Positions 3,759 through 62,375 of a stretch of DNA of 64,000 bases are shown one piece after another. Within the stretch, counting starts at the first letter, position 1. Each line of letters begins with the position of its first letter. Position numbers and translations under genes: made by a program. The stretch comes from Fabrea salina (Eukaryota > Ciliophora > Heterotrichea > Heterotrichida > Fabreidae). Below the pieces are notes generated by a model. It was not told where the DNA came from, did not search any database, and worked only from the letters and a program-made list of their open reading frames with translations. The stretch spans positions 122,087 through 186,086 of the forward strand of contig JALIHJ010000052.1 in the NCBI GenBank assembly GCA_022984795.1, written 5' to 3'.

Positions 3759-3845
3759 AATAAACATCTCATTTGAATGAAGGATAGCATTTGGAAAGAC
3801 CAGACCAACTGAAAAGACTTTGAGTTATGCATTAAATTAATTACA

Positions 3846-4235: not shown

Positions 4236-4530
4236 GACCTTCCTTGCTTGTTCTGGACTACCTGGTAATACTTAGTTCTTGGTAGTCCGCTTAGTTAAAT
4301 GCTGGGTAGTGCCCCTAGGTCGTCCAAATAAAAGTCTTTTCGCTGTTGTACCCATCAAACCATTTGTTAATAGGTTTATTAAAGTGGTCTGTAATATTTC
4401 TCTGACCAGAGTGCTGTAGATTTGGTGCAGTAACCTTACCACAACTACTTCAAGTTATCTTGCCCAAAGTGTTGTGGTTAATTCTATATTGGTTACTTCA
4501 ACTATTCTAAGCAGTTTATCAATATGTCAT
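4236..4530 (-). pseudogene. Small membrane/coiled-coil family, copy C (decayed)
   Basis: Only fragments align with copies A and B: a hydrophobic-core piece reading RLLHQIYS..., the flanking CACAACACTTTGGGCAAG region, and the 3' block around TTCCTTGCTTGTTC that also occurs in copy A. No continuous frame remains. It is third in the minus-strand tandem, between copy B and the divergent RCC1 gene. Confidence 0.45.
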
Positions 4531-13577: not shown

Positions 13578-15533
13578 TTAGTTACTTTGCATACTTTCCA
13601 TCTTAGCAATCAAAACAAGGGCTTCTTCAACTTCTTTGTCGTCAAGTTCAGTTTCTTGGATCCTTTGGAAGTTTTCGTGCTGAGCTTGTTCAGAAACCCA
13701 AGCACTGACTCTGACAGGGTTAGACTTTTCGTTTTTTTGTTGGGTTTCAAAGCTAACAGTTGCAGGCAACACATCTCCCCAGGGCTTAGCCTTGGAAGCT
13801 GGAGGTGGAATGTAGTTTTGGAGAGGGTAAGGGTCTGCATCGGTGTTGGCTCTTTCTCTAGCAGGTTCGTGTTTGGGGAAGTGACTTTGGAGTTTAGGAG
13901 TTTCTTCTAAGTTAGAGAGTGCCCTTGTTTTCTTTTTCTTTTTTTTCTTTTTAGGTTTGGTGGAAGTCTCTGTCTTTGGCAGGGGAATCTCTATGGGGTC
14001 TAGTTGGCCTTTGCCTATGAGGTTCTGAATTGGGTCTAACAACTCCGAGTTGATTGCTAAGAAGTGGTCTATGTTTTGGGGAGTTAAAAAGATCTTTAAG
14101 TTTTTGGATATGAATTCTTCACAGGCTTGCTTAAGTACTTGGCAGTTCAGCATGTCAGCAGCGTTTAGTAAGTCAGGAGCTGAGTGTATGTTAATTAGTT
14201 GACTCAGAGTGTGTTCTGAAATCTCCAAGAGCGAAGGTATTCTTGTAGGAAGTTGCAAGTTAGGTTTGGAGGTACTTACTATTGCCATAGAGTGGTGGTG
14301 GTAAACACTGGCTTTTTTAACACCTGCTATTAAAGGGCACAACTTAGGACCTTCTTCTTCTAAAAAGTAAAGGTCTCCTCTCTCAGTAACTGCGCAAGAC
14401 TTTTCTCCGCTCGAAGCATAACAGACTCTTTCCATGAGGTGCTGCATCTTGTAGTGGCTCCTCAAAGTAAACTTGATCTTTGAAGGCGCAAAAAATAACT
14501 GCCCTGCTGCAGTCACAGCGTAAATGCCTGTGGAACTAGCGCTTAAGCAGCTTAGGTCTTTGATTATTGCTGGAATGTGGAGTTGGATGTGGTTTTTCGT
14601 CCCAGGAGTCACTAGTAAGGAGTTGTTAGTTCCTATGCAAGTAGTGTCTTCGCCCATAGCTAAGTGAGTGATGTAGTCATCGCTAGAGATACCTGTTATA
14701 TCAAAAAGCGTAAAATCTTTGATATTCGACTTGAAAAGGCCTTTGTAGCACTGCGAAGAAAAGGTGTCTCCCCATATGTATAGTCTTCCATAATTACTCA
14801 GACTCCCTGAGTGGTTTTTACCAGCTGCTACTTTGGTGATGAGTACTTTTTTCAGATAAGAAACTTGCAAAGGCTTAGCTGAGTACTTAATTCCTTCTAG
14901 TCCTAATTGGCCATGGGAGTTATCTCCCCAGGCGAATACATCCCCTGCTTCTGTTAACTAAGTAGGACTTACACACAAAGAATGAAGTTCCCCTGCAGCT
15001 ACACTGGTAACTCTAGGCAACTCAACAGGGAAGGGAGTAATTGTTACTCCTTCTCTGCCCAAAACTCCTTTTATTCCTGAACCAAACCCGTAAACTTTTC
15101 CTTGGTCAGTCACACAAAGAGTGTGGTACTTGTTAGTAGCCAACTCAGAAATGTTTCTGTTTACAACTTACTCTTCAGGTTCGTAGAGGGAAGTAAATTC
15201 TACCTTGCGCGGTAGGTTTTGCTTCTCTTTAGAGTAGCCTAGTTGGAAGTCAGGCCCCACTCCCCAACTGAAGAGGCTGCCAAAGTTCCCTTCAGACAAA
15301 GGCAGTAAGTCACAAGGCCGCTGTCCTGAGTTGTCTTGAGCTGCAAGCATATCAGTGGGGTAAGGAGCTTTTTTAAGAATCCCCAGCATTGCAGAAAGGT
15401 TTCTGAACTGGCATGCGTAGTGCAAAGCGTTCCAGCCTCTAATAGGGTTCTTCAAGGTTGCAGCTTTTTGGTCAAAAACCTGAGAAAAGTCTCCTGTTTC
15501 CAAAGACTTCAGCAGATGGTAGTCTTCTGACAT
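13578..15533 (-). CDS. Ankyrin-RCC1 protein, IBTK-like
   Basis: The coding sequence is complement(13578-14957, 14973-15156, 15172-15533), 641 aa. An N-terminal ankyrin segment (GWNALHYACQFRNL..., about 20-85) leads into RCC1 repeats (about 88-390), with VYGFGSGIKGVLG and FAWGDNSHGQLG visible after splicing. A helical stretch near 400-470 looks like the end of a BTB/BACK domain, then a lysine run and a tail with AKPWGDVL. ANK-RCC1-BTB order and a PWG-containing tail are typical of IBTK, a CUL3 adaptor. The BTB part is degenerate, so the function is inferred. Two 15-nt introns are needed. Confidence 0.7.
14958..14972 (-). other. 15-nt intron, phase 0
   Basis: GTAAGTCCTACTTAG, A at position 10. 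It joins HSLC to LTEAGDVFAWG within an RCC1 repeat. Confidence 0.85.
15157..15171 (-). other. 15-nt intron, phase 2, CAG acceptor
   Basis: GTAAGTTGTAAACAG, A at position 10. It is the only one of the nine with a CAG rather than a TAG end. Confidence 0.8.
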
Positions 15534-24346: not shown

Positions 24347-26167
24347 ATGTCTGAAATATCCCAAATAATCAATTCTTTACAAAAACTCAGTAAAGGGGAG
24401 CACTCCCATTTATCTTTTGAGTTAGTAAGTAGGCTTGAAGAAGCTTTGGAAGACCCTAGAACAAAAGAAGCCCTAAAACTGTGCATTGGTTCAGTTTTTG
24501 GGGGACTGGTTGTCCTTTCATGCAAGTTTTCTGAGATTGATTCTGTTGTAGCTGACTTAGTGAAATACTTGTGTGTGGATGGCGTGGATTTTGTTCAGGT
24601 GTTAGTTCAGCAGTTCCAAAGTTCTTCTGAAGAAACCTTTATAGCAAAGCTTCTTTACTTGTCTGAAAAAGCTTTTGAATCAGTAATATACACTTAGTTA
24701 CCTTTTAACCAAAAACTCAAAGCAGCTGTTCACCTAGACCCTATTTTAAGCAACTTGGCAAGTCAAGGTTTAACTCAAATAGTAGTTGAAGAACTCCACA
24801 AAGTCCACTCTAAAGTTACCCACTTTCTTGATATGAGTCCTTGCAACCATGAACTTATAAGCAAGTGGCTTCAAAACCCCAAGTTAAGAACAGACAACCA
24901 GTGGGTTGTCATTGAAGAAGTTACTATGTTTGAGTTTTTCCAAGAAGCCATAAACTTTGAATTACTTTTAGACAACTTAAAACCTTGCTACTGCACATGC
25001 TCCCAAAAAGCCTTTGAGGCCCTTACACACAACCCTGAATTCTTTGAAGGCATTGAAAGCTTTGATGCCTTAGAAAAAACACTTGAAGTCTGCACTGAGA
25101 CTTTAGAAGTCTCTGGAACCCAAGTAATTCTGATTTGCAGACTGTTGGAGTACTGTATTAACACCTACCCAGAAAAAACTCTTCCTTTATTTCTAAACAA
25201 GCAAAAATGGCTGGTTTTGCTTTACCACATTAACTGCAGTTTTGTCCAGCACTTTTTGCGCTTTAAAGTTGTGTCTAACCAAGAACTCCCTATTCACCTT
25301 AGAAACACCTGGTCTGAAGAACTACTTCCCAAAGTACTTGAAAAACTCCTTTGGTTTATAGAGCTTGAAATTAACCTTGAAGGAACAGCTGAGTTCCTTT
25401 CACAACTTATAACAGAAGCCCTTGCAAACTCCACTCCTACTGTGGACGAACTGAACCAAGAACCTTTTTCCCCTTGTAACTCAGCTTCTTTGTTTAACTT
25501 GTTGTTTGTAAGGTACGGAAAGCTACTAGTGAAGTGCATTTTGAGTGCAAGCTTTAAGCACCCTAAACAGTTTTCTGAGGCCAAGTACCAGTACCTAGAC
25601 ATTTTAGTAGGTATACTCCAGAGCCTTAGACAAGGGGCCCTTAGTTGTATGCGGAGCGAATTAACTAGTTTACTCAGCCCAGAAGTTACTCAAGAGCTGC
25701 AAAAAGAAATTATTCACTTCAAACCTCCAACTCACTCAAAGTCCATAGCACTCAACACTTACACAGTGCAAAACCCCATAAACTTGTTTGCTTTAAACAC
25801 TGTAAGAGTTCTTACCTACACTTTAGAACTCAAGCCAAACTTAGCTGGGACTCTAGAAACTTCTTGCTGGACTAAGTTGTTCAACTGGGTTTTTGCTTTT
25901 AAAAGCAATGGAATGCTTTGCAGCTTAATCAAGCGACTTGGAACAGTCTTTATAAACAACTCTAGCGAACACACTCTAAAAGAAGTATTTATAAACCAAC
26001 AAATCCTTGAAAAAGCACTTGAAACTACTTCAGAAGAAGCAACACCAGGAGAAAAGGACTTGCACTGGTGCTTAAACAACTTAATACAAGAACTCAAGCT
26101 TTACACTAAGTCTCACTCTGACACCTTTGCTCAAGAAGTTCTAAACTATCTTAATTGTACAAGTTAA
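24347..26167 (+). CDS. Possible SAPS-domain (PP6 regulatory subunit-like) protein
   Basis: The coding sequence is join(24347-24682, 24698-26167), 601 aa. It is all-helical with armadillo-like hairpins. The segment LICRLLEYCINTYPEKTLPLFLNKQ...LLYHINCSFVQHFL resembles the central part of SAPS domains ('..FL..hp..v..ll.hi..s.i..ll'), found in PP6R regulatory subunits. The similarity is weak. Its stop lies inside the tail of the convergent SPC25 gene, so the two coding regions overlap by 17 bp. Confidence 0.4.
24683..24697 (+). other. 15-nt intron, phase 0
   Basis: GTAATATACACTTAG, A at position 10. Removal joins KAFES to LPFNQKL and links two long open frames. Confidence 0.85.
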
Positions 26168-33319: not shown

Positions 33320-33490
33320 GGTAACTTTAAGTTTCTTATTAGTTTGCTTAGTTTCTGTTAGAGTTTAGCTATTCATGGTTATATTTTCAGTGCTTAATTT
33401 TTTAATACTTTAAAGTTTTCATTACTCCGTCTATTTGCTAGATTTTTAGGTTTGTGCTTTACTTGTAATTTCTCGTTTTCTAGCTTGATT

Positions 33491-33873
33491 CATATGCTTA
33501 CCTTTATGGAATGTGTCTCTAGGTTTTGCATATGGTGTTCTTTCTTGTGTGGTTGTGTTGCATTGGTTTCACCTCCATTTTAGGAGTCCAAATCCTGTGA
33601 GACATAATCTTTAATATTCAGAAGTATTGTGAGGAGCTTCAAAACTGCTCAAGAGTTCCTAAAGGAAGGAAGCTTGAGCTAGCAGACTCTGGAGGTGGCC
33701 TCAATTGCTACAGTAGCAGGTCTACTGTATCAACTCCAAGCACTCTGAGGCAGGGGCGAGGGCAAACCAACAGAGTCCCGGGAGAAGGACTCGGCCGTAT
33801 AGAGCATATGATGTACGAACTGAGAGTAGAGCAGAAGGAGCAAGCAAGGGACTTCTACTCTAAACGTAACTAA
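33491..33873 (+). pseudogene. Small membrane/coiled-coil family, copy D (inverted duplicate)
   Basis: This copy resembles copy A along its length but lies on the opposite strand about 30 kb away. Shared blocks include the upstream TCTCTAGGTTTTGCATATG, TCACCTCCATTTTAGGA, the CAAGCTTCCTTCCTT region and the 3' end coding GLGRIEHMMYELRVEQ...ARDFYSKRN then TAA. The ATG of copy A is not preserved and the middle carries indels and stops, so it is probably non-functional. A 6-bp in-frame indel relative to copy A (extra Lys-Glu) suggests past selection on protein. Confidence 0.6.
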
Positions 33874-34245
33874 ACTTAACATTTATTAAGGTGTTCTTGC
33901 AGCAGTTTTGATAGGTGGATTCCAGAATGCTTGTCTTCAGATAACACCCTGCTTTGGTAAGGGGTCACCAGTCGACTCATACTACGACCAGTTTAGTTGG
34001 GTTGCAGTGAAGACTAATAAGTTTTTGTAATACTCACTTTCTATGTGTACTCCAGGCATTGTCTACTCATATCGATTTAGGGTGGACAAAGCTGGTAAAG
34101 TGACCCTCCCAGATCATATTCCTAGTTGATTAAACAAGGATGATGGTTATTTACTTAGACTGAACGAGAGTCGACATATGGATTTGTTTGACTCGTGATA
34201 TATTATGAACTAATTTTCAGATTTATCTATAAAGCTTATAATAAT
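33874..34245 (+). other. Gene-poor spacer with a possible decayed coding remnant
   Basis: Bases about 33955-34130 read GKGSPVDSYYDQFSWV..., a TAA, then YSLSMCTPGIVYSYRFRV in one frame. This looks like an eroded protein-coding piece, but it has no start and no recognised family. The remainder is A/T-rich and leads to the ATG at 34246. Confidence 0.3.
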
Positions 34246-39320: not shown

Positions 39321-41609
39321 ATGCTTTCTAAAATATTTGGAGGCAAAAGCAAGCACAGTCTTGAAAACTTCAAGTAAAGTCCAATTAGAGAAATGCACAA
39401 AGACTTACTGAACAACCAAGAAGTCACTTACCGAAACAAAGACAAAGTAGTTGAGTTACTCAGATGCATTGCAGAAGCCTTAGTGTGGAGTGAACAGAAC
39501 AGACAAGGACTGTTTGAGTAAGCTTTACATAGGTACTTCGCAGAAACCAACATGCAAGCTCTCTTCAACAGACTACTCAAAACTCAAAACTACAAAGAAG
39601 TCACTGTCCAACTCATACAAAGTGCAAACATCCTTGCTCACAACCTTACGCGTCCTGAGTCTAAGTGGTACTTGTTGGCTACTTCCTTCTACAGCGACAT
39701 AGTCTCACATCCTTTCGACTTTGCTGACGAAGAAGTAGTTGAGAACTACATGAGTTTGTTGAAAGGCCTCACTGTAAACCTAACTGAAGACATGCTGAGG
39801 AACTTTTTAAGGGAGCAAAACTACAGCTTGTACACAGGGGCTTTGATGTTCATTAACTACTCAGACACTATGGTACGGACTGCGTCTCGAACAGTGATTC
39901 TTAACATCATCAAAATCAAAGACAGAGAAATCAGGGACTTCATCCTGAACTCAGGGCTTTTCTTGAACTTGGTGATATTTACTAGAGACCAGTGGTTCTA
40001 CATTAACAAAGCTTTAATGGAGTTCTCTAGTTCTTCGAAGATCGATTCTTTGCTGACTGAGCAAGTCGACAACTTGTACTACTTAAACGACATTTTCAAC
40101 CAAGACATTCCTGAGTACAGCCAGGACTTAGGCAACATCTTTCTGAGGTTCCTGGCACTTCCTATGATTGTTGGGACTCTAAGTGCGGAGGTCTCCAAGC
40201 CCCACCACATCTACATACCACTAGCTACTTACTTTTTGGTGCATGTGCTGGGCATCCTGAAACACCCTCCAGTGATAAACACCCTTGTGAGTTGTTTGTT
40301 TCTCAAAGAAATAAGGCAAGAACTTTTAGAGGCTTGTTTAGGCCAGTTCCCCTACCCGCCTAACTCACAAGACCACAAACCTCCTAAGCAGTTCGACCTT
40401 ATCAAACTAGGGGCCTTGATGGTGGACTACCTTGAAAAGTTAGACGAACCAGAAAACATGACTAAAAACCCAATCAGGAACTCAGTACTGTCTTTCCTGA
40501 GGTCGAGAGACGACAACCTGATTACGCTCACTTTACTGGTGATTGACAACGTAGTTTGGAACAACAACATTGGAAACGTGGTGCTTTGGAAGTCAGGGTT
40601 GCTTCCTCAAAACAGAATGAAAAAGAAGAAACTCTTAGGAAGCATCATAAAAGACAAAAGCGACGACTTAGAAGAACTCAAAGACCCCAACAAAGCTGTT
40701 TACGACTCAGAAATAATAGAGAACTTACTTAAGCTCCTCAATGTTGACCCTCCTTTCAGAGCAGTTACTTGCCAGTTGTTACTTAAGCTAGTGTTAGGTT
40801 TTTCTTACATTGAGAACTCGCCAAGGAGTTTGCTTATCGAGCATGAGTTCTTTTTAAACACAGCTTTTAAAAGAAACATACTTAAGCTGCGCAACTTCCT
40901 TTCACAGAACTACTACGACGACCTTTTCTTAGAGTACTTCGAAGAAGAGTTTAAAAAGGTTTCTAAAATCAACTTCACTGAAAAAATAACTTGCTACTCA
41001 CACCTGATCTACCCAGTGATAGAAAACAACCTAGCCCAGATACCTCTTGACCAAAGACAACCAGTGAGTGAACTAGAGTCCATCAGACTAGAAATCAAAC
41101 TGTTCTTTTTGCTGAGGAAAGCCAAGTACCTTTTATGCCAAGAAGAAATTCCTCCAGACTACAACATCAACACTTACCCACTTACTTACTTGAAGTCTGA
41201 GTGTGACTGGAAACAAGACCAAACTTACTTGATGGGTGAAGAAAGGCAGTTCGTAATGTGCAACATGAAGCTTGGAAAGGAAAACTTCGTTAGGTTCTTA
41301 ACTGAAGACGAAGACTACTTTGTGTTGGTAGAACCTGATCAGTACAGACTTAACTACGCCACTGTAAGAACCATCACCAAACTAAGGAACGTCGAAGTCA
41401 TGGCTGACAGAGCCGACCCCAGGAGTCTCGTAATAGCTATTAAAAAGAACCAGGACTCTTACCAAGTTGTGCTGACCTTTGAGGACTCTCAGCGGTGCGT
41501 TTGGGCTAAAAAGAAGATAGAAGAAAACAGAAAAGTATCCAAGTCAAACGACATTAGTCTTATTGAGTCTTTGCTGGACTCTTTAGATATTAATTGTAAA
41601 GTAAGTTAA
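39321..41609 (+). CDS. CLEC16A: CLEC16A/Ema homologue (FPL domain)
   Basis: The coding sequence is join(39321-39373, 39389-39517, 39533-41609), 752 aa. The N terminus MLSKIFGGKSKHSLENF..., built only after removing two 15-nt introns, matches the CLEC16A start. The FPL domain follows: IAEALVWSEQN, FEYFAETNMQALF, FDFADEEVVENYMSLLKGL, YTGALMFINYSDTMVRTASRTV. CLEC16A works in endosome/autophagosome maturation and mitophagy. The stop codon (41607-41609) overlaps the stop of the opposite antiporter gene in a shared TTAA. Confidence 0.92.
39374..39388 (+). other. 15-nt intron, phase 2
   Basis: GTAAAGTCCAATTAG, A at position 10. Confidence 0.85.
39518..39532 (+). other. 15-nt intron, phase 2
   Basis: GTAAGCTTTACATAG, A at position 10. 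Confidence 0.85.
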
Positions 41610-42940
41610 GATTCTGGCATCACTGTAGCTTTGTTGAGCCATCTGGGACCTAGTAAAGCAGTCAGCACCGCCCCCACTGGAGCAGTTAACAGTATGCAAA
41701 GTACTGCTACGTTCAAAAAGATCCTTCCTATTCTTAAGTAGTCATCGTCCATGTCTTCTTCTTCAGCTATACTCAAAGCCACTCCTCCCAGTGCTGCCTG
41801 GACAGTTGCTTTTGCCATCCAAACTATAGACACAAACAACTTTTCTTTAGTAGTGAGTCCTGACTTACACACTGCTAAGAATGCTGTGGGGATTCTAAAA
41901 ATCAGCCCCACTGCTATTACAACTACTCCTCCCAGTACAAGGTCTCTTTCTAAGTCACCTAAGTCTACTAAGGCTCCAATGAGCCCGAACAAAAACACCT
42001 GAAGCACCTTCCACAAGTAAGAAATGTGCTTTTCCACTTCGATAGAGCCCTCTCCCCACTTCATTCCTGCAACTGAGCCTAAAGTTATAGTTGCTAAGAA
42101 GCCCAAACCTGATAGTCTTAGAATACCTGAAACAAGTACTACTCCATAAGCCAATCCAAAACTACAAACAGTCTTTACTAAACTAGGTGCCTTAGTAAAT
42201 AGCCTCAAAAAAAACCCGATTATAACTCCTACTAAGATTCCACCCACCAGTTCAAATATCCCCACTAAAACAGAGTTCACCACAGGGTCGTCTCCAAAGT
42301 AGTTTACTCCTTCTCCAGACCCTCCAAATCCAACTCCAAGCAACACTCCAAACACTAACTAAAACTTACAAGAAATAGCCAAAACATCGTCTAAACTACT
42401 AGCTGCTACAATGATGCTAGGAATTCCTTTGTCAGTTCCAATGCCCTCTTTCATCATCTTAATGCATGCAGGAACAACTACTGCCGGAGACACTGCGCCT
42501 ATCATAAAACCCAACGCAAAGCAAAAAGCCCAAGGTATGTCAAACACCAAGTAACAAGCCACTCCAGTAACTAGGGCTTCTACTAACTGAGGAAAACCTG
42601 TAAGCCTAAGTACAGCCCCGCTGTTTTGCCTGACTTTTTGCACGTCTAAGCCAAGTCCAGCCCTCAGCAGTATAACCGTAAGTGCTAGAGTCCTTAGTTG
42701 TATTGACCACTCCAGTTGTATGTCAGAAACTATGCTTATAGTGTTTCTTGCTAGGATTCCTCCTAGTAGCATTCCTATCTAAGTAGGTTTTACCAAGGGT
42801 GGAATATGCACGTTGGGGCAAAGTCCTTTCCATTCGTGAGTACCCGTTTTGAACCCATAATTAAGAAAGTGTGTTAAGTAGCCTAAGCTAGCCGAAACTG
42901 CAAAAACTACTAAAAGTCCTGCAATAGTTATTCCTACCAT
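41606..42940 (-). CDS. NHA-type (SLC9B/CPA2) Na+/H+ antiporter
   Basis: The coding sequence is complement(41606-42354, 42370-42778, 42794-42940), 434 aa. It is a polytopic membrane protein with an N-terminal signal-anchor-like helix and about 12-13 TM segments. The key NHA motif is intact: GAVSPAVVVPACI followed by AASSLDDVLAISLFG, with the Asp pair used for cation/proton exchange (completed across an intron). It matches SLC9B/NHA2 rather than classical NHE in its short length and lack of a long C-terminal tail. Its ATG is separated from the divergent F-box gene's ATG by one base. Confidence 0.88.
42355..42369 (-). other. 15-nt intron, phase 1
   Basis: GTAAGTTTTAGTTAG, A at position 10. It is visible only because the retained intron gives an internal TAG. 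Confidence 0.85.
42779..42793 (-). other. 15-nt intron, phase 0
   Basis: GTAAAACCTACTTAG, A at position 10. Confidence 0.85.
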
Positions 42941-44192: not shown

Positions 44193-47100
44193 TTATTTTT
44201 GGTCTCTGACAGCTGTTGTAGTGTGTGGAAATGTGCTAGTTTCGTTGACTTCTACTGGATACACCTTAGTTTCGTTGCTTGACCCTCTGCAACGACTGAT
44301 TAAAGAGCTAATAGAAATCAGTAAAGGACCAGAAGCCTGCACAGCTATACACCCAATTGTAGTAAATATTATGATATTTTCTGCAAGGGTGTCTTGACCA
44401 CCACTTCCCAAAAAGTAGGTCACTTCTAGAAATACTAAAAGCAACCCAAGTTCTGTCAGGAAAGTGGTTACCTGGAGTATTTTTTCTTTATGTGGCCTTA
44501 CTAGTCCCAAGAACACTACTGAATTAAACATAATGCCAACGTTCGCTGCAGCTTGGATACTAGGAAAACCACTTAGAACTACCAAGTTCAGCGCATAGAA
44601 GAACCTGACCACAAAAAATACTACATAGAAATAGTGGGAATACTCGTTTTCTTCGTAGTCGAATTCGTAAAAGAAAGTTCCCCACTTTTTGTGGAAGTCT
44701 GATTCTAGTGAGAGTAGTTCTATGGTTTCTGAGTTCTTTTTCACAAATAATGCCAGTATGCAAGGAGAGGCTAAGGCTAAGATAACTACCAAGCTGCTGA
44801 CTGAGTAACTAAGAATAGACACCAGTTCAGAGTCTGGAGGAAATAACACGTCATTGGCAGCTGCTATACAAAAGTCTAAGTAGCCCTGTATCCAGAACCT
44901 CAGGAAGAACCCATAGTGGTAGTTCTTGAGTAACTTAGAAAAGAAGTTCTGGATTTTAGTGTACTTGCACTTCGATAACAACCAAGCAAAGGGGATCAGT
45001 AGCAGATTGGCAAAGAACATAGTTAGGATTTCCCCAGTGTTCAGTAGAAAGAGTTTAGTGTCTATTCCAAAATCCAAGGCTTCTGGGTGGGGGTTTTCGT
45101 AGTCGTAGTCTAAAGTGTAATCAAAGATGTTTGGAATTGGAAGGATGTCTAGTTCAAGTTCAGAGAAGAAGTTTGAAGTTCTTTTTGATATAGGAATGCT
45201 GCTCAGGGGAATGTAGTTAAGCAGTATGATGGTATTGAGAAAGGCCCAGAGGCTTGAGGGATTTGTACTTATGAGTGAACAGACTATGCTAACTGCGGAA
45301 GCTCCTACTGTTAAAGCAAAAGTTCCGCTAACACTATAGTCTGGCTTGTACTTACTCGGCTTTGAGTTGTACTTAAGTTCTCCCAGCACAGACTGGTTTT
45401 TACTGTAGAGTAGTTCTTTAAATAGTAGCTCAACTGGCTGGTCTTCGGGAACTATTTGTTCAAAGCCAAACTTGATTTCGTAGTGAGTGGTGTTTACTTT
45501 GCTAAGTTTGTAGTTAAAGTCGATGTCTTGCACACTGAGCTCAAACTGCTTCTTGCTGAGGTCACTAGAAAGTTCCTCAGTAAAACTCAGAGTTCCAACA
45601 TTGTCAGAGTCAACTAAAAAGCTTGCGTAGAACTTTCTGGTAGAGAAACCTGCTCTGAAAACTGAGAAGTGGTTGCACTCACACACTGCTTGTGACTGAG
45701 TTTGGGCTTTCAGTGAGCACCCAAAAGTGTCCCATATGTTTGAAGAGTTAAGGTACTCACACTGAAGCACTTGGTTAGGTGCAGGTTCAGCCACTGGAAT
45801 AACTAAAGTTGAGTTTGAAGTGTGGAGTGGAATGGCTTGGGAGTCCTTAACAAAGTCAATACTCAGCACAGAAGAGGTGTTTTCTTGCTTAAAAGGAATC
45901 TGTGCAATTGAGACTCCGTACTGAGAACCACTTAAGTAACTGCTAAAGTCAGAGGGAAGCTCTAGGTACCCTCCACTGAACGCAAAGTTGGAGTTGTCTA
46001 GGTCTTGTTTATTCTTGCTTGTCATAAGTACTTCTAGGCCTTTTTTGACAATGTGCTTTTCTTCATTCTGGCCCATAGCACTTAGAACTTTAGTGTTCAT
46101 TAGAGTGATGCTTTCTTGCACTGCTTGGACTTTGTCTATAGACTCCTCTCCTTCCAAGGTATTCTGGGCTAGTTCAGTGAACTCTTCAAGTACCTCCTCA
46201 GTGATTGTGTTTGGGTCAAGCTTAGTTATTAGTTTCTGAGTTGTTTGGTGAAGTAAGTTTGTGGCTTCAGTGGAGTTGAGTTGGGCTCTGGACACTAACT
46301 TAAGTATTTGAAAGGAAGTTTTTGCTATTTGAGTATCAGTGTAGGGCAGAGAGTCAAGGTAGTTCTTTATTGAGTCCACACAAAAGCTAAAGTCAGTCTG
46401 AGTAAAGTTGCTTCTGTTCAGAGTTGAAAGTATAAACAAGTTGAGGTATTTAGGGGTTTCAAGCACAAATCCTTTTCTGAGTTTACTTTTTAGAGCTTCT
46501 TTGTCAGGGTTTTCTGCTTCAAGCACCCTGATTGGCAGAGTAGTTGTGGACTTGGTTTCGTAGTAGTCATAAACTTCTAAGTAAGCTTCAACTTGGTTTC
46601 CTAAGTAAGGAAGTTCAGAGTAGAAGTAGCTAGAAAAGTTTTTAGTGTTCAGGTGCATAAGGCCTAGAGTTGAGTTGATTCCGAATGAGTAAGTTAGTGG
46701 AATGTGGTTTTCAGGGTCTATCCAGTTGCTTGCTCTGAACTCAAAAGTAGTAGAGAGTTCAGTTCCTTCTCTAGGAGTCACTGAGAATTGACCTGCTTGA
46801 GGTGGCTTGTTTACACTGAATTCAATTCCGTAGGTAAAAGACTCTATTTGCAGGGACAAAAAGTATTGGTCCTCTGAGCTAAGAGACCCCTGCTTAATGG
46901 CCAAAGTAGGTGAATTGAGTGGTGAGTCAAATTCTATGTTTAGGCCTTCTTTAACTGCCCAGCTTACTTGGTGGTCTCCTTCGTAGATTGCTGTGATTCT
47001 TACTGTTCTTTGAGGGTTTGCTATGTTGTTGTAGATGTTTTGTTTATAAAACTTTACTTGAGGCACTTCTACTCCAAGGGCAGTAATGGTTACTGACTCA

Positions 47101-50100
47101 GTTACAGATGAACCAGTGAGTGGCTTGTAGAGTGTCAGAGTAAAAATGTAATTCTTAGTAGCTTGCATCTTAAAAGGCTCTACTCTGCACAGTGGCGAAG
47201 TTGTGTTGCTTATTAAATGGGTGCAGTCTTCTTGGTTACTCAAACAAGTCCACTGGAACTCCAAAGGCAGATAGTCAGGGTCATAAGAGTCACTAGCGTC
47301 TATTTCTAGAGTCTGCTCCACTCCAATGTACCCATTGACTCTGTCTAGCACTATGCTGGGAGAAGATGGAAGAACCCTAACTGATATTCTTTCCCTGCCT
47401 TCTGATGACCCACTTGTTGCCTTTACCTCAAACTCTAATTCAGACAAGGCAGGAAGGGAGTAAGCCACAATGTAAAGGGCCTCCTCTACCAGTTGGTTCT
47501 TCCAAAAAGTCTCTTCGTCAAATTCAGCTTGGTTGTTTGAGATTGAAACTAAGCTCCATTCAAACCTTGGAGAGATTATTTGAGTGGAAAAAGAAGTAAA
47601 CCCTGCGGATATATAGTATGAGCCCTGTCTTTGGATTGCAAAGGAAATACACTGATTTGTTGTCGAATCAAGTACTAGAGAACTGTTGCAGTCAGTGCAG
47701 TGGGTTGCTGACCCTAAGCATGCTGCACAATTAGAGTCACAGGGAACACAGCTGCCCCCTGATAAGTACTCGGATGCACCACAGGAAATGCATTGGTTGG
47801 TTGTTGAATCAAGCAGTGAGGGACTAGTGCAGGCTGTGCAGTCGGAATCAGAGGGTCCAGTGCACTTAGAGCAGGATCCATGGCAAGCCCCACAGGTAGT
47901 AGAATCTATTTGATACTCTCCGTCTGGGCATGTTGATTGGCATTTACCTGAAGTAGTTAGCACTCCAGAGTTACACTCAGCGCAGTCGTCGTTATTTGGG
48001 CCATCACACTTAGAACAGGATGAGTTGCAATCTTCACAAGTATTAGTCCCAGTGTTTAAGTACTTTCCATCTGCACAAGAAAGTACACAAGTATTAGACC
48101 CTGTTAATGTTTCTCCGGCTACGCAATCAGTGCAATCGTTGTTATTTGGGCCATTACACTTCAAGCAGGACGTGTCGCAACTAGCACAAACATGAGGGCT
48201 GACTCCAGTGTTTTTGTACTCTTCATCTGGGCATGTTGATTGGCATTTGCCCGAAGTTGTTAGTAGGTTTAGTGAGCTTCCAGAATCGCATTCAGTGCAG
48301 TCGTCAATGTCTGGTCCTGAGCATTCTGCACAGTCGTTGTGGCAGTTTTGACAAACATCAGAATCATCTGAGTACTTTCCTGTGGTGCAGGAGTCTAAGC
48401 ACTGGCCTGAGTCTAAAACCTTTCCTGTAGGGCAAGCTGTGCATTCGGTACTACTTGACCCTGAACATTCTGCACAATCATCATGGCAGTTTTGACAAAC
48501 ATTAGAGCCATCTGAGTACTTCCCTATAGGGCAGGAACCTAAGCACTGGCCTGAGTCTAGAACCTTTCCAGAGTTGCATTCAGTGCAATCGCTAGATGAA
48601 GATCCGTCACAGTTAAAGCATGACCCATCACAAGCTCCGCAAGTACTAGAGTCTATTTCGTACTCTCCGTCTGGGCATGCTGACTCGCAAGTGTTTGAAG
48701 TCGTTAGTAGGTCTCCAGATTTACACTCAGTGCAGTCAGAATTAGAGGATCCAGTGCACTTAGAACACGACGTATCACAGTCTTGACAAGTATTACTTCC
48801 AGTATCTAGGTACTTTCCATCTGCACAAGAAGTTACACAAGTATTAGACCCTGTTAGTGTTTCTCCGGCTACGCAATCAGTGCAGTCGTCATTGTTTGGG
48901 CCATTACACTTCAAGCAGGATGAGTGGCAACTAGCACAACCATTAGGACTGAGTATAGTGTCTTCGTATTCTCCATCTGGGCATGTTGATTGGCATTTGC
49001 CTGAGGTCGTTAGTAGGTCTCCAGAGTCACACTCAATGCAGTCAGAATCAGAGGGTCCATCACAATTCAAGCAGGACGTATGGCAACTAGCACAAACATG
49101 AGGAGTGACTTTAGTGTCTTCGTACTCTCTGTCTGGACATTCTAATTCACAGGTTTTTGAGGTCGTAAGTATTTTTGTAGAGTCGCAAACTGTGCATTCG
49201 TTATTGTCTGGTCCCGAACATTCAGCGCAGTCACCGTGGCAGTTTTGACAAACATCAGAATCGTCTGAGTACTTTCCTGCATGACAAGATTCTAAGCACT
49301 GGCTTGAGTCTAGAACCTTTCCAGATTCGCAAGCAGTGCATTGGGTACTTGACCCTGAGCACTCTTTGCATGAGCCATCACAGGGTTGACAAACGTTAGA
49401 GCCATCTGAGTACTTTCCTGCAGGACAAGAGTCTAAGCACTGACTTGAGTCTAGAACCTTTCCAGAGTCGCATTCTGTGCATTCGTTGTTATTGGGCCCC
49501 GAGCACTCTGCACAATCGCTGTAGCAATCCTCACAAGAACCTCCGTCATAGTACTTTTTGGTCTCACATTCACACCCATTAGTAGTGTCTCCTCTGAACT
49601 GACAAGCATTGCAGTTAGTGTTTCCAGAATCTGAGCATCCATTGCACCTTGGGTCGCAGGGATGACAAACGCTTGAACCGTCTACATAGCCTTTGCATAC
49701 ACAATTTGAGCTTTCCAGTTCATAACCGTCAGCAGTGTTACAGGAATCACAGTCTGAGTTTGTTCCTCCATCACATTCATTACAACTCGGATCACAAGGA
49801 GAACAAATTGAAGTTCCACTTTTATATTGTCCGGATGGGCACTCACAAACATTAGAATTCAGCACAAAAGGAGAATTGCAGTCATCACAGCTAGAAAAAT
49901 CTTTACAGGTCTTGCACTGCTCGTCATAGCAAAGGTTGCACAAGGAGTCATCTCTAACACAACCAACTTTTTGGCAGTCGGCATGGCAAGACTTGCATGA
50001 GGTAGTTGAGTCGTCCCAGTACTCATTTATATCGCAAGTAGGCAAGCACTGGTCTGAGTTGTTGGTCGGGCAGTAAGTGCATCCCACAGAACAGCCAGAA

Positions 50101-50460
50101 GACTGTAAGAGACTTGAAGGGTCAAAGTCGGTGTTGTAGATTCTTAATTCCCACAAAAATCCATGGAAATCAGATTTTATTGAAGAGTTATCATATTTAC
50201 CTCCAATCACGCAGATATAGTTGCTATTAATGTCTTCATGAAAATTATTTGCTAAGTCTTTAACTTTTGGTGTATTTCCATTGAGCGAGACAGCAATTTT
50301 GTAATTGGAAGACTTTACGTAGGATCTGAATGTTAAGAAGTTCCATTGATCACTTGCAACAGAGTCGTCTTCCTCTAAATTAGCATTCGGGTCTGAGTTT
50401 GTTCTAATCTTTCCTTTTATTTTTCCATTTCTTATGCGGAAAAAAGAGTAAGTATTATAT
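44193..50460 (-). CDS. Giant furin-repeat/PKD/GPS membrane protein, 3' part (interrupted by LINE)
   Basis: Joined to 54568-55058 this gives 2,252 aa. The 3' part holds the end of a laminin-G/concanavalin-like domain, about 820 residues of furin-like Cys repeats (residues about 285-1105), and PKD-like domains (IDASDSYDPDYLPLEFQWTC). A GPS-type proteolysis motif sits at about 1731-1764 (W..FGC....CECNHFSVF). A C-terminal multi-TM region follows from about 1885. The layout resembles polycystin-1/adhesion-type receptors of ciliates. The gene is otherwise intact: codon phase is kept exactly when the insertion and one target duplication are removed. It is a paralogue of the gene at 56901-62375. Confidence 0.85.
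47695..47794 (-). repeat. 100-bp block shared with 60421-60520
   Basis: By eye 95 of 100 bases match the block at 60421-60520 in the neighbouring paralogue, much higher than the rest of the two genes. It encodes one and a half cysteine repeats. Confidence 0.75.
48016..49010 (-). repeat. Higher-order repeat within the furin-repeat region, period about 750 bp
   Basis: Blocks near 48050-48260 and 48800-49010 match closely over several consecutive cysteine repeats, e.g. both contain CTTTCCATCTGCACAAGAA and CCATTACACTTCAAGCAGGA at an offset of about 750 bp. This means an array of about 250 residues was duplicated as a unit. Confidence 0.65.
50445..50460. repeat. Target-site duplication, copy 1
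   Basis: AGAGTAAGTATTATAT, identical to 54552-54567; flanks the LINE. Confidence 0.9.
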
Positions 50461-53400
50461 TTATTTATTACGTTATCTAGCCCGTGGGCCTCTGGGTACA
50501 AGTGGAAAGGGGTCCTCTGGTTTTCGCTTCCTGCTTGCGTGTCTTCTTTTGTGGACCCAGTCTGCGAAATTTTTGATCGCGTTGTCTACGGTTCTTGCGT
50601 CGGTTCTGTTGTGTCTTATGTGGTTTTCGTAGTTGTTGCTGCAGAGTACTATTTCGTAGAGGTCTGCGTTTCGGTTGAAGTTGTGTTTTGCTAGTGTTTC
50701 TTGTAGGACGTGTCTTTCTATATAGTGTTTGGGGCAGTGCTTTATGATGTGTTCCACGTCTTCTTCTACGTTGCATTCGGTGCATTTGTTATCGCTTTTT
50801 AGGTGTCTTAGGTGTTGGATCCTTGCTGAGTCGTTGTAGCCTGCTCTCCATGCATGAATGGTGGCGATGGAATGGTTTCTTTCGCTGTTTAGTTTTACGT
50901 AGAGTTTGGCTTCTCCGGGGTGGTCTGTGGGTGTTGAGGTTAGTCTTAGAAAGTCTTTGCATGTTGGTTTGTTCGCGCATTTTTCTCTTCTTTTGTGGTG
51001 CTCGTATGTTCGTATGGCTTTGTTTACCACTTTTTTGTATTCTGTTGGGTCTGCTGTGTCTTCTATTTCGTACTTCTGTTTGATTTTTGAGAGTTCTTTT
51101 GACCAGGGTAGTTCGAGTGTTTTTGAGATTGTTAGTAGTTTGGTGTGTAGCGGGTTGTAGTTGGTCGTTAGTCTTTTCCACAAGTTGAGTTTGTTTTTGT
51201 TTATTGTTCCTTTTATTGTCGTCCATCCGAGGTCTTCTAGCGTCGTTTCTTTGGCAGTTCCTTTGAATGCTCTGAGGATGCTTCTGGCTGTTTTTCTTTG
51301 AATGATCTCAAGGCTTTCTAGGATGGTTTTTGTGCCTTTGCTTGCGGTTGTGTCTAGTGCATAAGTTGAGACTGTGGTTATTATTGCTTTTGCAATGTTG
51401 GCTTTGTTGGTTACCTTTAGGCTCGGTGCTATCTTCAGGGTATTTAAGACTGCTAGTGCTGCGTGCTTGGTATTCTCGTACCTGTCTTTCATCTGTTTGC
51501 TGGAGGTTGTTCGTTTTCCGGTTCTGTAGCCTAAGTATTTGACGTCTTGTTTGGGTGTGAGTGTGGTTCCGTTTAGCTTTATTGGCGTTGTGTCCGTGTT
51601 CCTTTGTGTTAGGATTTCTGTCTTGTCTACGTTGATTTCTAAGTTGAATCTTTTGGCCCACTTTGCTAGTGTTCTGAGAGTTCTGTTCATTTGTGCGGGG
51701 GTTTCTGAGAAGAGTACGATGTCGTCTGCGAACATTAGCGCTCTGATTCTTGCTGTTGTACCTCTACATCTGACTGTGTGTCCTAGTTTTTCTTCTCTTA
51801 GTTCGCTGATCAGCTCGTTCATCACGAACAGGAAGAGGAAGGGTGAGGAGGCACTTCCTTGTCGTACTCCTTTGTTGATTGTTATTTGTCTTCCTGTTAT
51901 GTTGTTGATTCTTATGTTGCTCTTCTCGTGCTCGTACATTTTGGCTAAAAGGTGGACTGTTTCGTAAGAGATTCCTTTGTCTAGTAGTAGCTCGAATATC
52001 TGGGGTCTGTTCACTGAGTCGAATGCCTTTTTGATGTCGACGAAGGCCATTATGAGGGGTTTTTTCTTCTGGGCCGATTCTTCCATGATTGTGTTTAGTG
52101 CAAAGATATGCATTTGGCAGTTTTTCTTTTTTTGAAATCCTGCTTGCTCTTCTTCAATTATCCCTATTTTGGCTTCTTCTCTTCTGAGTCTTGCTTCTAT
52201 GATGGTGTCGAGTAGCTTGTACCATGTGTTGAGTAGGGTTATGGGTCTGGTATTCTCTGGTTCCGTTGCTCCTGTCTCTTTTGGGATTGGGATGATTGTT
52301 GCGTCTGTGATGGTGCTTGGGATTGGGTTCTTGTTTGCGATTTCGTTGATTACTTTCGTGGCTAAGTTTAGTCCGTCACTTCCTGCTTTTTTCAGGAATT
52401 CAGCTTTCATGTTGTCTGGGCCCGGTGCTTTGTTTCTGCCGAGTTTCTTTAGGGCTGCTTCTACTTCTTGTTTTTCTATTGTGATCACTTCGTTTGGTTC
52501 CTTTTCTGTGAGGTGGCTTAGCGAGTCTGCTGCGGCGTATTTGTCTTCCCAGTAGTCTTCTATGTTTTTCCTTTGTTGTTCGTTGAGGTTCTTGAGCATG
52601 CTTTTTTTCTTGAGTTTCTTGTGTATTTCCCAGGCTCCTTCTTTGTCGACCGTGGCCTGCATGATGATCCTTCCTGCTCTGCTTAGTTCGCGTTCTTGGT
52701 CTCTTTGTTTTCTGAATTTGTGTTTCTTCATGTTGTAGTCGGTTTGCGCTTTGTTGATTTCCGCGTTGTTGCCTTCTTTGAGCTCTAGGATTAGGGTGTT
52801 TTTGGCCTGGTTCATTTCTTGTAGGGTTCTTTTTTGGCTTGGTGTTATTGCGTTGTTCGTACTTCATTCTTTTTTGATGGTTTCTTTGGCGTCTTCGAGT
52901 AGCTTGTTGGTGTAGTCTAGCCAGCTTTGTTCGTTTTCTTTGGGCCTGCTTCTTATTATTTTGTCAAGGTTCTCTTGGTACTCTTTTTCTGCTTCTGGGT
53001 CGTTTAGGTTCTTTGTGGTTGTTGTGGGTCTTTTCGTCGTCTTTGTAGCGAGTTCGTTGATCAAGAGTAGGTGGTCTGTTTCTACTGGTGCTGTTCTGTG
53101 GATTTTTGTTGTTTTTAGTTCTTGGTTTGATGCAATGTGGTCGATGTTGCTTGTGTTGCCTCTTCCATTTGTGTAGGTGTTTTCTTCGTTGTGCGCTGCC
53201 TTCAGGTTCCAGCTTCTTAGGTAACTTTTAAATTGTCTTCCTCCGTTCGTCGTGTTTGTGTTGAAGTCACCCATGACGAGGATGTTGTTCTTTGCTGTTG
53301 CTGTTTTTTCGTGTAGGGTTTCGTAGAAGTTGTCTAGGTCTGTTTGGTTGTTGTTTGCTGGGGCGTAGGCTTCCAGTATTGTTGTGTCTGTTAGGTCTAT

Positions 53401-54551
53401 TGTGCAGACTCTTCCTTTTCCTTCTGTTTGGATCTTTGCGTTGGCTTGAGTTTCCAGGGAGTTTTTGTAGTAGATTGCGACTCCTGCTTGATGGTTTGAG
53501 CCGGGGGACGCTATTCAGTCGTAGCCGAAGACTGTTGGTGGTTCTGTGTTGTGCGTTTCTGCTATTCCTATGATGTCTGGGTCTGTGTTCTTAATCATCG
53601 TGTTGAGTTCTTGTTGCTTGTTTTTGAGGCTTCTTACGTTGAGGTGTGCGATTTTCAGGGTTTTTTCCGTCTTTGGGTATTGCTGATCCTTTTTAATTAA
53701 GTTAATTTCTTCTTCTTGTTTCTTTTCTTGTTTCGCTAGCCTCGCTCTTTTTTGCCTTTCTCGCTTTTTGTTGATTTGGTTCTTCCTTTCTTGCGTTTTT
53801 TTGCACAGGTCGTTGTTTTCTTTGTGTCCATACTCGTTGCAGGTTTCGCATTTGCTGAGGCATTGGTGTAGGGTGGTGATTTCTCCGTAGTTGGTGTTGA
53901 TTTGGTTTCCTAGGTTGGCCGCTGCTTCAATGTCTGGGATTCTTGCGTATAGGACTCTTCTTCCCGTGTCGATGTTGGTTCCTTCAATGTAGAGTAGTTC
54001 CCATTCGAGTACAGTTGCGTTTTTTTTCCTTAGTTCTTCTATGACTTGGTCTTTGACTAGTTCGTCGGTGATGTTGTCTGGTAGATTTATGCTTATTCTG
54101 TACCTTGCGAGGTTGATTAGGCCGTCTTGCTCCAGTCCGATTGGGATTTTGACTTCTTGGTCCTCCGTTTTTAGGTGTACGAATCCTGTGTGTGCCATTT
54201 TTTTGGCCTCTTCCGCTGATGCAATGTGGGCCACCACATCGCCTGAGTTGATGATTCTGGCTCTGACTATTTGGTGTGGGTAGGTTTCTTCTAGTTGTTT
54301 TGTGATGTATTCCAGCGCCGCTCTCCTGTGTTGGGGGGTACTGTTGTTGCTCATGATTTTTGAGGAGTAGATTCTGACTAGTTGCGCGTCTATGATCTGT
54401 TCGTTTCTTTTCCCTCTTTCTTGCTCGTGTATGTCGGAGCCTACGGTCCGCATCTGGGGTCCGTCGCCTGCTCTGCCTGGGGCCGCGGCTGAGTTCTCCC
54501 TTCGGACTGCGGTGTCGCAGAACTCCATTCCTTCCATAAAAAGTTTTTTTT
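50461..54551 (-). mobile_element. Complete LINE-type (non-LTR) retrotransposon
   Basis: This 4,091-bp element sits between perfect 16-bp duplications, in the same orientation as the gene it interrupts. It has a 14-nt leader (A8-C-T5), one long frame from ATG 54535-54537 to TAA 50473-50475, and a 12-nt A/T-rich trailer (CGTAATAAATAA) as its 3' tail. Order: gag-like region with a CCHC knuckle, AP-type endonuclease, reverse transcriptase, and a C-terminal zinc-knuckle-like motif. Intact ends and duplications point to a recent insertion. Base and codon use differ from host genes. Confidence 0.92.
50473..54537 (-). CDS. LINE polyprotein (gag-like, endonuclease, reverse transcriptase) with two in-frame TGA
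   Basis: The frame is 1,355 codons including the stop. An N-terminal gag-like part has a C-x2-C-x4-H-x6-C knuckle (CETCNEYGHKENNDLC). The endonuclease shows HLNVRS, the catalytic Glu in IAETHN, GDFN, and a SNIDHIAS ending. The RT shows PGPDNMKAEF, AFVDIKKAFDSVN, GVRQGSASSP and FADD. A CTEC...H...C motif lies near the C terminus. The frame is broken only by TGA codons at 53515-53517 (after FGYD, before IASPGS) and 52864-52866. There are no frameshifts and no TAA or TAG. The first lies where Trp is plausible. Either UGA is read as Trp or the element has two nonsense mutations. Confidence 0.9.
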
Positions 54552-54567
54552 AGAGTAAGTATTATAT
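54552..54567. repeat. Target-site duplication, copy 2
   Basis: AGAGTAAGTATTATAT, identical to 50445-50460. Confidence 0.9.
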
Positions 54568-55058
54568 AAATCAATATTTTCTTTCCAAAATAAATGAAAA
54601 TATTCCTCATCTGGCTTAGGCATAACCCAAGCTATAAAAGTAAACTTCGGAGCTAAAACTAGTTCTTTTCCTCCATCGCCAGCTCTAAAAGACATGTAAG
54701 AGTCTCCGGTAAAGTAATATCCTCTTCCCCCTGCAGCTATTGGGTCAGTTGAATGGTAGTTGGGGTAGAAACTGTTGTCTGAGCCTGTCAACACTGGAAT
54801 GGAGTTTCTTCGTTCTTCCACAATGTCAAGAATTACATTATCTAAGCTTAAGTGGAAGACAAAGGTGTCAGAAGCATTACAGACTCCTGAGTTTAGAGTG
54901 AATCCAGTGGGGCAAAAAGGAATGCACATGCCTTGAGTTAGATAGTAACCTGTTGAGCAAGTCGTGCAACTGTCTACCCCTGTTCCACAAGTGCCACAGT
55001 TGGCGGAGCACCCCAAACTAACTTGTATGAGCATTGAAATAAATAAAAACCTAGCCAT
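54568..55058 (-). CDS. Giant furin-repeat/PKD/GPS membrane protein, 5' part
   Basis: About 163 codons precede the LINE insertion. A signal peptide (about 1-16, MARFLFISMLIQVSLG) is followed by a small Cys-rich unit (CSANCGTCGTG..CTTCSTGYYL) and the first half of a laminin-G/concanavalin-like sandwich (FHLSLDNVILDIVEERR, FTFIAWVMPKPDEEYFHLFW). The other half lies just beyond the LINE (NGKIKGKIRTN, DQWNFLTFRSYV). With the element present the frame runs into the LINE and stops. The upstream 237 bp holds no other gene. Confidence 0.85.
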
Positions 55059-59900: not shown

Positions 59901-62375
59901 AATGTTAGAAGGGCCACTCAACTGACTCCAATCATAACTAAGAGACCCACCTGCTCTTCCAACTGACTTCTTTGCTGATACTTGCAGTGACTTGGTGGCA
60001 CAAGGAATGCTGTAGGAGTAAGGAGCTGAAAGCTTGGCTGAAGGAATAGGCAGTGGATACTTGTACTCAGCCACTGGTTCTAAGTTGGAGTAGTCAAAGG
60101 AACACTCCCCCTACTTTTTAAGAATGTTGAAGGCATTCAGTTTCAGGGCTTCGTTGCGGATAGTGAAGTTAGACCCCAAGCTCACCACCAAAACAGTGCT
60201 GTTTTTCCACGAACAAAAAGGCTTGATTCCAAGTTTCTCTGAAGTTTCTGACTCAAAGAAAGTTCCACAAGAACCAGAGTTAGTAACAGCTTCCTCATCA
60301 AATGTAACATAGATTTTGGAGTACGTCTCAGAAAAGTAAGCTGAAACTTGAGAGGAATCAAAGTACCTTAGGCAACCTACACATCTGTTGGAGTCTAGTA
60401 CTAAAGGACTAGTGCAGTCAGTGCAGTGGGTTGCTGACCCTGAACATGCTGCACAATTAGAGTCACAGGGAAGACAGCTACCCTCTGATAAGTACTCGGA
60501 TGCACCACAGGAAATGCATTGATTCTTGGTAGAGTCTAGTACCAAGGGACTAGTGCAGGCTGTGCAGTGGGTTGCCGATCCCGAACACTCTTTGCATGAG
60601 CTATGGCAAGGTGAACAGATTGGCCCGTCTTTATAATAGCCATCATCACAAACACATTTTCCTTCTGATTCCGAAGAATTGGTTGGACACAAACAGTCTC
60701 CACCAGAGCTTTGCAATGAATTAGTTGCTGTGCAGTCAATGCAGTTAGGATCCTCTTTGGTAGAACATCTTTGGCAGGTAGCTGTGCAGAGAGTGCAAGT
60801 TAAACCTGAAGGGTCTGAGTTGTAGTAGCCATCTTCACACACACAAGTGCTCTCGTAAGGTGATGAGTTGACTGGGCACACGCAGTCTCCAGTAGCATCG
60901 TTAGAAGCATGGGTTACTCTGCAATTTACAGTGCAATCGGGGCTGTCTGCCGGACATCTTTCGCAGCCAGTGGTGCATACTTGACAATCTAACCCCCCAG
61001 GATTCGAATTGTAGTAGCCACTTTGACATACACAAGCAGTGCTATAAGCCGATGAATTGGGTGGGCACACACAGTCTCCGTCAGAACTGATTATAGCACG
61101 GTCGGTTGTACAATCAATACAGCCAGGGCTATCTATATCACTGCACCTTTCACAGGAAGTAGTGCAGGAAGTACAGGTTAGCCCACTTGAAGCCGAGTTA
61201 TAATACCCATCTTCACAAACACATTTGTTGTTATAAGGCGATGAATGGTCCGGGCACACACAGTCTCTGTTGGAATCTTGGGAGGCATACTCAATGAGGC
61301 ATTCTATGCAGTTTATGTCTTCTTTGTCCGAAGGATCAGTGCACCTTTGGCAATCAGTAGTGCAAAGACTGCAAGTTAATCCACTTGAAGCTGAGTTGTA
61401 ATAGTCATCCACACAGACACAAGTGTTGTCATAGGGAGAGGAATTATCTGGGCATACACAGTCTCCACTAGCGCTTTCATAAGCATGGGTTATTTTACAG
61501 TCAATGCAGTGAGGATCGCTTGTACTGGAACAGCTTTCACAAGTAGTTGTACAACTGACGCAACCTGATCCCGAGTTGTAAAATCCATCATTGCAGACAC
61601 ACACACCGTTTATGTTAGTAGAATCACCAGAACACCCACCAGTCGAGCATTGACAAACACCTCGAGAGCAAGTAATTACATCTGAAGCATTGGGGCAATC
61701 ACATTCCGTTTCTGATGCTGATAAAGCGTCGTTAGTAGGACATACACAATTTCCACTTGGATCTTCATAGGCATTAGTTACTGTGCAGTCAATGCAGTTG
61801 GGGTCATCTTTATCGGCACACCTTTGGCAAGAAGTAGCGCAGGAAGTGCAAGTTAAGCCTGAAGGGTTTGAGTTGTAATACCCATCTTGACAGACACAAG
61901 TATCATCATAAGGCGAGGAATTATCTGGGCACACACAGTCTCCACCATCGTTATAAGCATGAGTTACTTCACAAGCTACAATACAATTAGGATCATCTAT
62001 GGGGCACCTTGTACACTTAGTAGTGCATTGTTGGCAACTAAGAGTATCAGTACCAACATTAAAATAATTATCTTCGCAAACACATACTAAATTGTAAGCA
62101 GAAGAATTGTCAGGGCATGCAGCACAGGTAGTACCAGTCCATGCGTCTGACCCTGAGCAGTTTGGAATACAGCATTCATCTGCAGAATCAGGATCAGGAG
62201 TGCATTCTGAAAAACATTGATTAGCTGAATAAGCATCGCAATCGACTTGAGAACTATTTGGGTTTTCACAGCAGTTCTTTATAGTTGTGCTAGGACAATC
62301 AATACCCGAATTGCCATTATTCGAAAGTCCATTCCAAAGTAAAAATCCTAGTGCAAAAAATAGCCTTAATTTCAT
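56901..62375 (-). CDS. Giant furin-repeat/PKD/GPS membrane protein with one in-frame TAG
   Basis: The frame is 1,825 codons including the stop, and is unbroken except for TAG at 60111-60113 (codon 755). A signal peptide (about 1-18) precedes furin-like Cys repeats (to about 670), many of the form CVCEDGYYNS...GLTC..C...C-x-RC. A domain with YVTFDEEAVTNSGSCG and LGIKPFCSWKN continues across the TAG into SFDYSNLEPV. PKD-like repeats (LDASESYDPDNSQGPLEFEWTC) and a degenerate GPS (about 1530-1570) follow. Several TM helices begin at about 1592. The half after the TAG lacks a plausible ATG and signal peptide, so it reads as one gene. A nonsense mutation, readthrough or sense UAG are alternatives. 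Confidence 0.75.
60421..60520 (-). repeat. 100-bp block shared with 47695-47794
   Basis: About 95% identical by eye to the block in the paralogous gene; possible gene conversion. Confidence 0.75.

Follow-up and report, generated by a model that had tools for sequence, protein, structure and literature searches.

The window analysed here, a stretch of 64,000 nucleotides (nt) of DNA from a probable heterotrich ciliate, contains a 4,091-nt element inside a gene for a cysteine-rich receptor with REJ and laminin-G-like regions. Judged from its sequence, the element is a non-long terminal repeat retrotransposon of the apurinic/apyrimidinic endonuclease (APE) type, that is a long interspersed nuclear element (LINE), with one reading frame. 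The locus is interpreted with high confidence as a single LINE insertion by target-primed reverse transcription into the receptor gene, and this insertion is probably recent.

The element is bordered by two copies of the 16-mer AGAGTAAGTATTATAT (Table 1). In a search of the window that allowed one mismatch, two exact occurrences of this sequence were found, while two matches at the same tolerance were present in none of 100 dinucleotide shuffles. The interval between the copies comprises 4,091 nt, in agreement with an earlier note on this DNA, which had described an element of this length between identical 16-bp repeats. On the minus strand, the host flanks sum up to 6,759 nt when one copy of the repeat is kept, and the joined sequence translates into 2,252 residues followed by one terminal stop, with no premature stop over 6.8 kb. 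The phases of two flanks match by chance in one third of all cases, and a stronger test is given by the Pfam domain Laminin_G_3, which spans the rejoined junction. In the joined N-terminal piece the domain was identified with 35.4 bits (Pfam cut-off 27.6), whereas for the separate halves, 21.2 bits were obtained for the C-terminal one and no Laminin_G match of any kind for the N-terminal one. Thus, both the exact restoration of the frame and the lack of any other lesion in the gene, as claimed before, were borne out. The element was inserted in the same orientation as the receptor gene, and on the plus strand of the reconstructed empty site, AAATCAATATTTTC directly follows AGAGTAAGTATTATAT.

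The identification of the insert as a LINE, which had been proposed in the note, is based on an Exo_endo_phos and an RVT_1 domain, with the endonuclease located upstream of the reverse transcriptase; both share one frame, provided that two TGA codons, which the note had not mentioned, are read through. In APE-type LINEs, the catalytic motifs HLN, ETH, YAP, GDFN, IDH and TDH are expected for the endonuclease, together with FADD for the reverse transcriptase. All of these are visible in the translation of the element and are aligned to LINE-1. Matches of the element protein in the PDB were to LINE-1, R2 and a few other reverse transcriptase chains, and the best solved relatives are chains of LINE-1 ORF2p (E 8.9e-34; 8uw3, 8sxt, 9hdo), which share the order of endonuclease and reverse transcriptase and align over element residues 296-1053. 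Unlike LINE-1, the element has one frame, a CCHC-containing N-terminus with weak evidence for an RRM-like fold, very short ends and no long poly(A). An AlphaFold2 model of the N-terminus was weak, with a mean predicted local distance difference test (pLDDT) score of 51.8, and showed an RRM-like order; a Foldseek search with this model gave tandem-RRM proteins as the first three matches (TMt 0.36-0.44). This model is only suggestive of an RRM-like N-terminal stretch; if that reading holds, an ORF1-like part would be fused to ORF2 in this element. A fold model of the endonuclease was set aside, with a pLDDT of 46.9.

The frame of the element is preceded by a leader of 14 nt at the 5' end and followed by a tail of 12 nt at the 3' end, which makes it likely that the copy is full-length. 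The 3' end is A-rich and reads CGTAATAAATAA. No repeats at the ends of the element were present among the window repeats of at least 40 nt.

Table 1. Positions of the LINE, the interrupted receptor gene and the accepted 15-nt introns in the window
Feature	Positions	Strand	Basis
LINE element, 4,091 nt; sense strand A 0.44, T 0.12	50461..54551	-	composition computed
One frame encoding the element protein, 1,354 aa on readthrough of two TGA codons (W under table 4)	50473..54537	-	translation
CCHC-type motif CETCNEYGHKENNDLC; tandem-RRM-like stretch on its N-terminal side	53803..53850	-	by eye; RRM-like fold weak
APE-type endonuclease, Exo_endo_phos, residues 299-489	53071..53643	-	Pfam E 9.4e-16; LINE-1 endonuclease structures match
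In-frame TGA inside the endonuclease domain	53515..53517	-	translation
In-frame TGA, spacer between endonuclease and reverse transcriptase	52864..52866	-	translation
Reverse transcriptase, RVT_1, residues 751-1005, FADD box present	51523..52287	-	Pfam E 3.1e-39
C-terminal CCHC-type motif CTECNVEEDVEHIIKHC	50734..50784	-	by eye; sub-threshold zf-RVT 15.0 bits (cut-off 27.5)
Target-site duplication copy at element 5' end, AGAGTAAGTATTATAT	54552..54567	.	exact match
Target-site duplication copy at element 3' end; four TA dinucleotides; putative nick after ...TTATAT, + strand	50445..50460	.	exact match; nick inferred
Receptor gene, 5' part: hydrophobic leader (by eye), Cys-rich stretch, start of laminin-G-like domain	54568..55058	-	translation, Pfam
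Receptor gene, 3' part: remaining laminin-G-like domain, Cys-rich (VSP/GF_recep_IV) and REJ regions	44193..50460	-	Pfam
Present frame of the disrupted gene: 205 aa, enters the element, stops at TAG	54441..55058	-	open reading frame
15-nt intron GTAAGTCCTACTTAG, RCC1-like gene	14958..14972	-	frame joining
15-nt intron GTAAGTTGTAAACAG, same RCC1-like gene	15157..15171	-	frame joining
15-nt intron	24683-24697	+	frame joining
15-nt intron	39518-39532	+	frame joining
15-nt intron	42355-42369	-	frame joining
15-nt intron	42779-42793	-	frame joining

Insertion by target-primed reverse transcription is very likely. Following the established mechanism of LINEs, the endonuclease would nick the plus strand at TTATAT/AAATCAA, and the plus-strand end after TTATAT would prime the copying of the element RNA, a priming site suggested by the element 3' end, which lies directly next to the first of the two 16-mers. 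A staggered cleavage of the second strand would then give rise to the 16-bp duplication. The insertion cuts the receptor frame to 205 residues, and in the favoured reading the sequenced DNA would contain it as a single allele or in part of the somatic copies.

The age of the insertion was estimated in two ways. The identity of the duplicated bases (16 of 16) bounds the divergence only at about 17%. A tighter bound is given by the undamaged 6.8-kb host frame, which corresponds to about 0.3% substitutions per site at one indel per ten substitutions, or to 0.9-1.3% when indels are left out; this bound is valid only if the receptor gene has been dead or unselected since the insertion, and it no longer holds should the cell retain intact copies at other places. 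The description of the insertion as recent therefore stands as probable, with indirect support from the host-frame bound of about 0.3-1.3% if the gene is truly dead.

For the rest of the receptor gene, Pfam matches to VSP, REJ and GF_recep_IV were identified; an origin from Giardia was not accepted, the VSP match being taken as a sign of cysteine-rich repeats instead. The window contains three cysteine-rich receptor-like genes in total, at 18687-24338, 44193-55058 and 60111-62375. The first is a cysteine-rich frame resembling the disrupted receptor, with furin-like Pfam matches, while the last resembles it by blastp, yet has no Pfam match. In addition, a stretch of 181 nt at 47665-47845 is 87% identical to 60391-60571, and this sequence similarity suggests an exchange or a recent duplication.

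That the host is a ciliate, as stated in the note, was supported by its introns. Candidates of the form GTA..(T/C)AG were found nine times at a length of 15 nt, compared to zero to three times at each of 19 other lengths between 11 and 30 nt. Unrestricted GT..AG candidates were present at every length, with 5-27 per length and 17 at 15 nt. Six of the nine restricted candidates, distributed over four genes, were accepted as introns, each joining the frames of its gene (Table 1). The RCC1-like gene is one of the four, and its frame passes two in-frame stops once both introns are removed. The candidates at 4416-4430 (intergenic), 51157-51171 (antisense in the element) and 51753-51767 (sense in the element) were dropped. 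About 95% of heterotrich introns are reported to be 15 bp long (PMC11441545), and because of the 15-nt introns the host can be narrowed down to a probable heterotrich. No ribosomal RNA was identified in the window at the gathering threshold.

Genes are densely packed in the window and their frames are long and uninterrupted, as expected of a somatic assembly. Intergenic spaces are very short, with 8 nt between the divergent start codons at 7144 and 7153 and none between 30717 and 30718, and AT-rich stretches immediately precede many ATG codons. A dispersed repeat occurs twice between genes, once on each strand (3279-3764 and 33485-33879), the pieces of which are 83-93% identical. The composition of the element frame differs from that of the host, with T at 3.9% of third codon positions compared to 19-42% across 27 host frames. 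An avoidance of 15-nt splicing as the reason for this scarcity of T was not supported, since the result was mixed: the element contains three GT-N11-AG sites compared to 3.16 in synonymous shuffles, showing an arrangement without avoidance, while resampling with host codon usage gave 6.08 sites, so that its own composition does lower the number.

Several results weigh against the interpretation of the insertion given above. Within the window, no other copies of the element were found by blastn (E 0.1) or tblastn (E 1). Searches for relatives gave 12 pattern stretches in viral contigs and 77 in genome contigs, none of which was confirmed, and the 30-mer at the element end was absent from the viral contigs. 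Since no second copy was found, the full length and the boundaries of the family rest on one copy; the designation as full-length in the note is thus likely from the short ends. The 30-mer of the empty site was likewise absent from both viral and genome contigs, a null result that says little, since the collections searched are viral and prokaryotic. Current activity of the copy is made improbable by the two in-frame TGA codons, and because of them it is probably dead or inactive, unless TGA is read through in the host.

A tblastn search of plasmids with the element protein gave 53 records, none covering 80% of the query. Among the 20 plasmid matches listed, the alignment was confined to element residues 655-1076, and six of the ten with a named feature were group II intron maturases. 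One of them, an unannotated reverse transcriptase stretch on an Alicyclobacillus fastidiosus plasmid (record L001, 4001-4972), is 31% identical to that of the LINE with an E value of 3e-30, a match much stronger than any of the remaining 19 listed; it is possibly a eukaryotic contamination.

Both interruptions of the 1,354-codon frame of the element are TGA, and the frame is otherwise open. It was therefore considered whether TGA is read as tryptophan in the host, at least weakly, so that the LINE frame would be fully coding. If two nonsense mutations occurred at random, two changes from TGG to TGA would be expected with a probability of about 0.0014 at a kappa of 2 (0.0005-0.0034 for kappa 1-4), a figure which is conditional on the replaced codons having been TGG. 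The stop codons of the host are in line with this proposal. The census comprised 28 frames, consisting of 26 of the 29 listed (three in or across the element were omitted) plus two others with a length of 150 residues or more. For 27 of these, with one ending inside the element left out, 25 TAA, two TAG and no TGA stops were counted. For Blepharisma stoltei, UGA is described as a tryptophan codon, and for Stentor coeruleus, UGA is reported to account for a rare 9% of stops (PMC6879139); the absence of TGA among 27 stops is compatible with such a rate (probability 0.078). However, reading TGA as W lengthens none of the host frames at the 3' end, in comparison to 168 TGG codons in these frames, and only the frame at 26793 could begin further upstream, by 51 nt, across a TGA. 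The host frames were cut at TGA, so that the absence of in-frame TGA is by construction. In addition, despite its preference for NNA codons, the element has 12 TGG and two TGA codons in its frame. Scoring of ten residues at the first TGA in Pfam gave 59.1-61.0 bits, with Y as the best, C as the second and W at 59.9 bits, so that W was not singled out and its identity at this position is not established. Since none of the 27 host frames ends in TGA and none is extended by it, TGA is neither a routine stop nor a routine tryptophan codon in the window, and its reading as tryptophan is considered quite improbable.

The somatic fate of the insertion can be explained in more than one way. One proposal is that the insertion is fixed somatically and the receptor has become a fresh pseudogene, a loss that would be tolerated through related receptors. 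The two further cysteine-rich frames that resemble the receptor in the window are consistent with a buffered loss, whereas the remaining 6.8 kb carries no lesion, which limits the age of the loss to about 0.3-1.3% substitutions per site; a fixed loss would therefore be young, but not impossible. This proposal is regarded as possible, though rather unlikely. The lack of damage in the remaining frame is in line with a germline LINE that acts as an internal eliminated sequence (IES), of which the contig caught a retained copy. Here, a domesticated TA-cutting excisase would act on corresponding TA dinucleotides in the two 16-mers as the macronucleus develops and remove the LINE between them, so that most somatic copies would carry an intact gene. 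The 16-mer contains four TA, and whichever corresponding pair is cut, the frame is restored exactly. For Blepharisma, some LINE loci are described as partly excised as IESs, and a clean excision of transposons through a submotif of the target-site duplication has already been proposed in print (PMC9942806, PMC9942856). However, most AT-rich 16-mers hold at least one TA, so that its presence proves little and excision is possible rather than strongly favoured; moreover, a gene-dense, somatic-like assembly should lack a well-excised IES. That the LINE was caught in becoming an IES, with scarless removal in most developing macronuclei and survival of the receptor, is thus judged unlikely. If true, a single locus would demonstrate, in a LINE, how a transposon turns into an IES by way of its target duplication, a path that so far has been put forward as a proposal in print.

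An artefact of assembly at the junctions has also been considered, since repeats are a common source of chimeras. A chimera is not expected to yield a perfect 16-bp duplication at the exact ends of the LINE frame together with a restored domain, and because of this perfect duplication the possibility is very remote.

LINEs in somatic genomes have been described for the heterotrich Blepharisma and the karyorelict Loxodes (PMC9942856, PMC9942806, PMC11441545), and the locus consequently belongs to an already known kind. The macronuclear genome of Blepharisma stoltei is reported to contain APE-type LINEs which are negligibly expressed, with some loci partly excised as IESs, and for a transposon whose target-site duplication holds the cut motif of the excisase, a footprint-free removal was proposed (PMC9942806, PMC9942856). 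The statement in the earlier note that ciliate somatic genomes usually lack intact transposons inside genes thus needs to be qualified. Similar to B. stoltei, the host is a probable heterotrich with tiny introns, and a LINE with APE and RVT_1 domains is present in gene-dense somatic DNA. Unlike in B. stoltei, where UGA codes for tryptophan, no host frame in the window ends in or clearly uses TGA. Compared to the LINEs of B. stoltei, the copy described here has an exact target-site duplication inside a recognisable coding domain; the likeness to them concerns the host type, the domains and the genomic setting. For Loxodes magnus, LINE domains are reported by the thousand, along with full-length insertions that are monoallelic, in a repeat-rich genome with an intron length mode of 17 bp and a mean of 19.3 bp (PMC11441545), in contrast to the 15-nt introns and the high gene density of the window. 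In the titles and abstract openings of the literature searched, no heterotrich gene was described as carrying a LINE together with its target-site duplication.

What is added here is one copy, probably young, whose exact ends lie inside a coding domain and which is flanked by a 16-mer with four TA. The locus would allow a direct measurement of somatic retention, of excision through the target-site duplication of a LINE and of the reading of TGA. Apart from these uses it is an ordinary retrotransposon insertion, and its main interest lies in whether the cell removes the element from its working genome.

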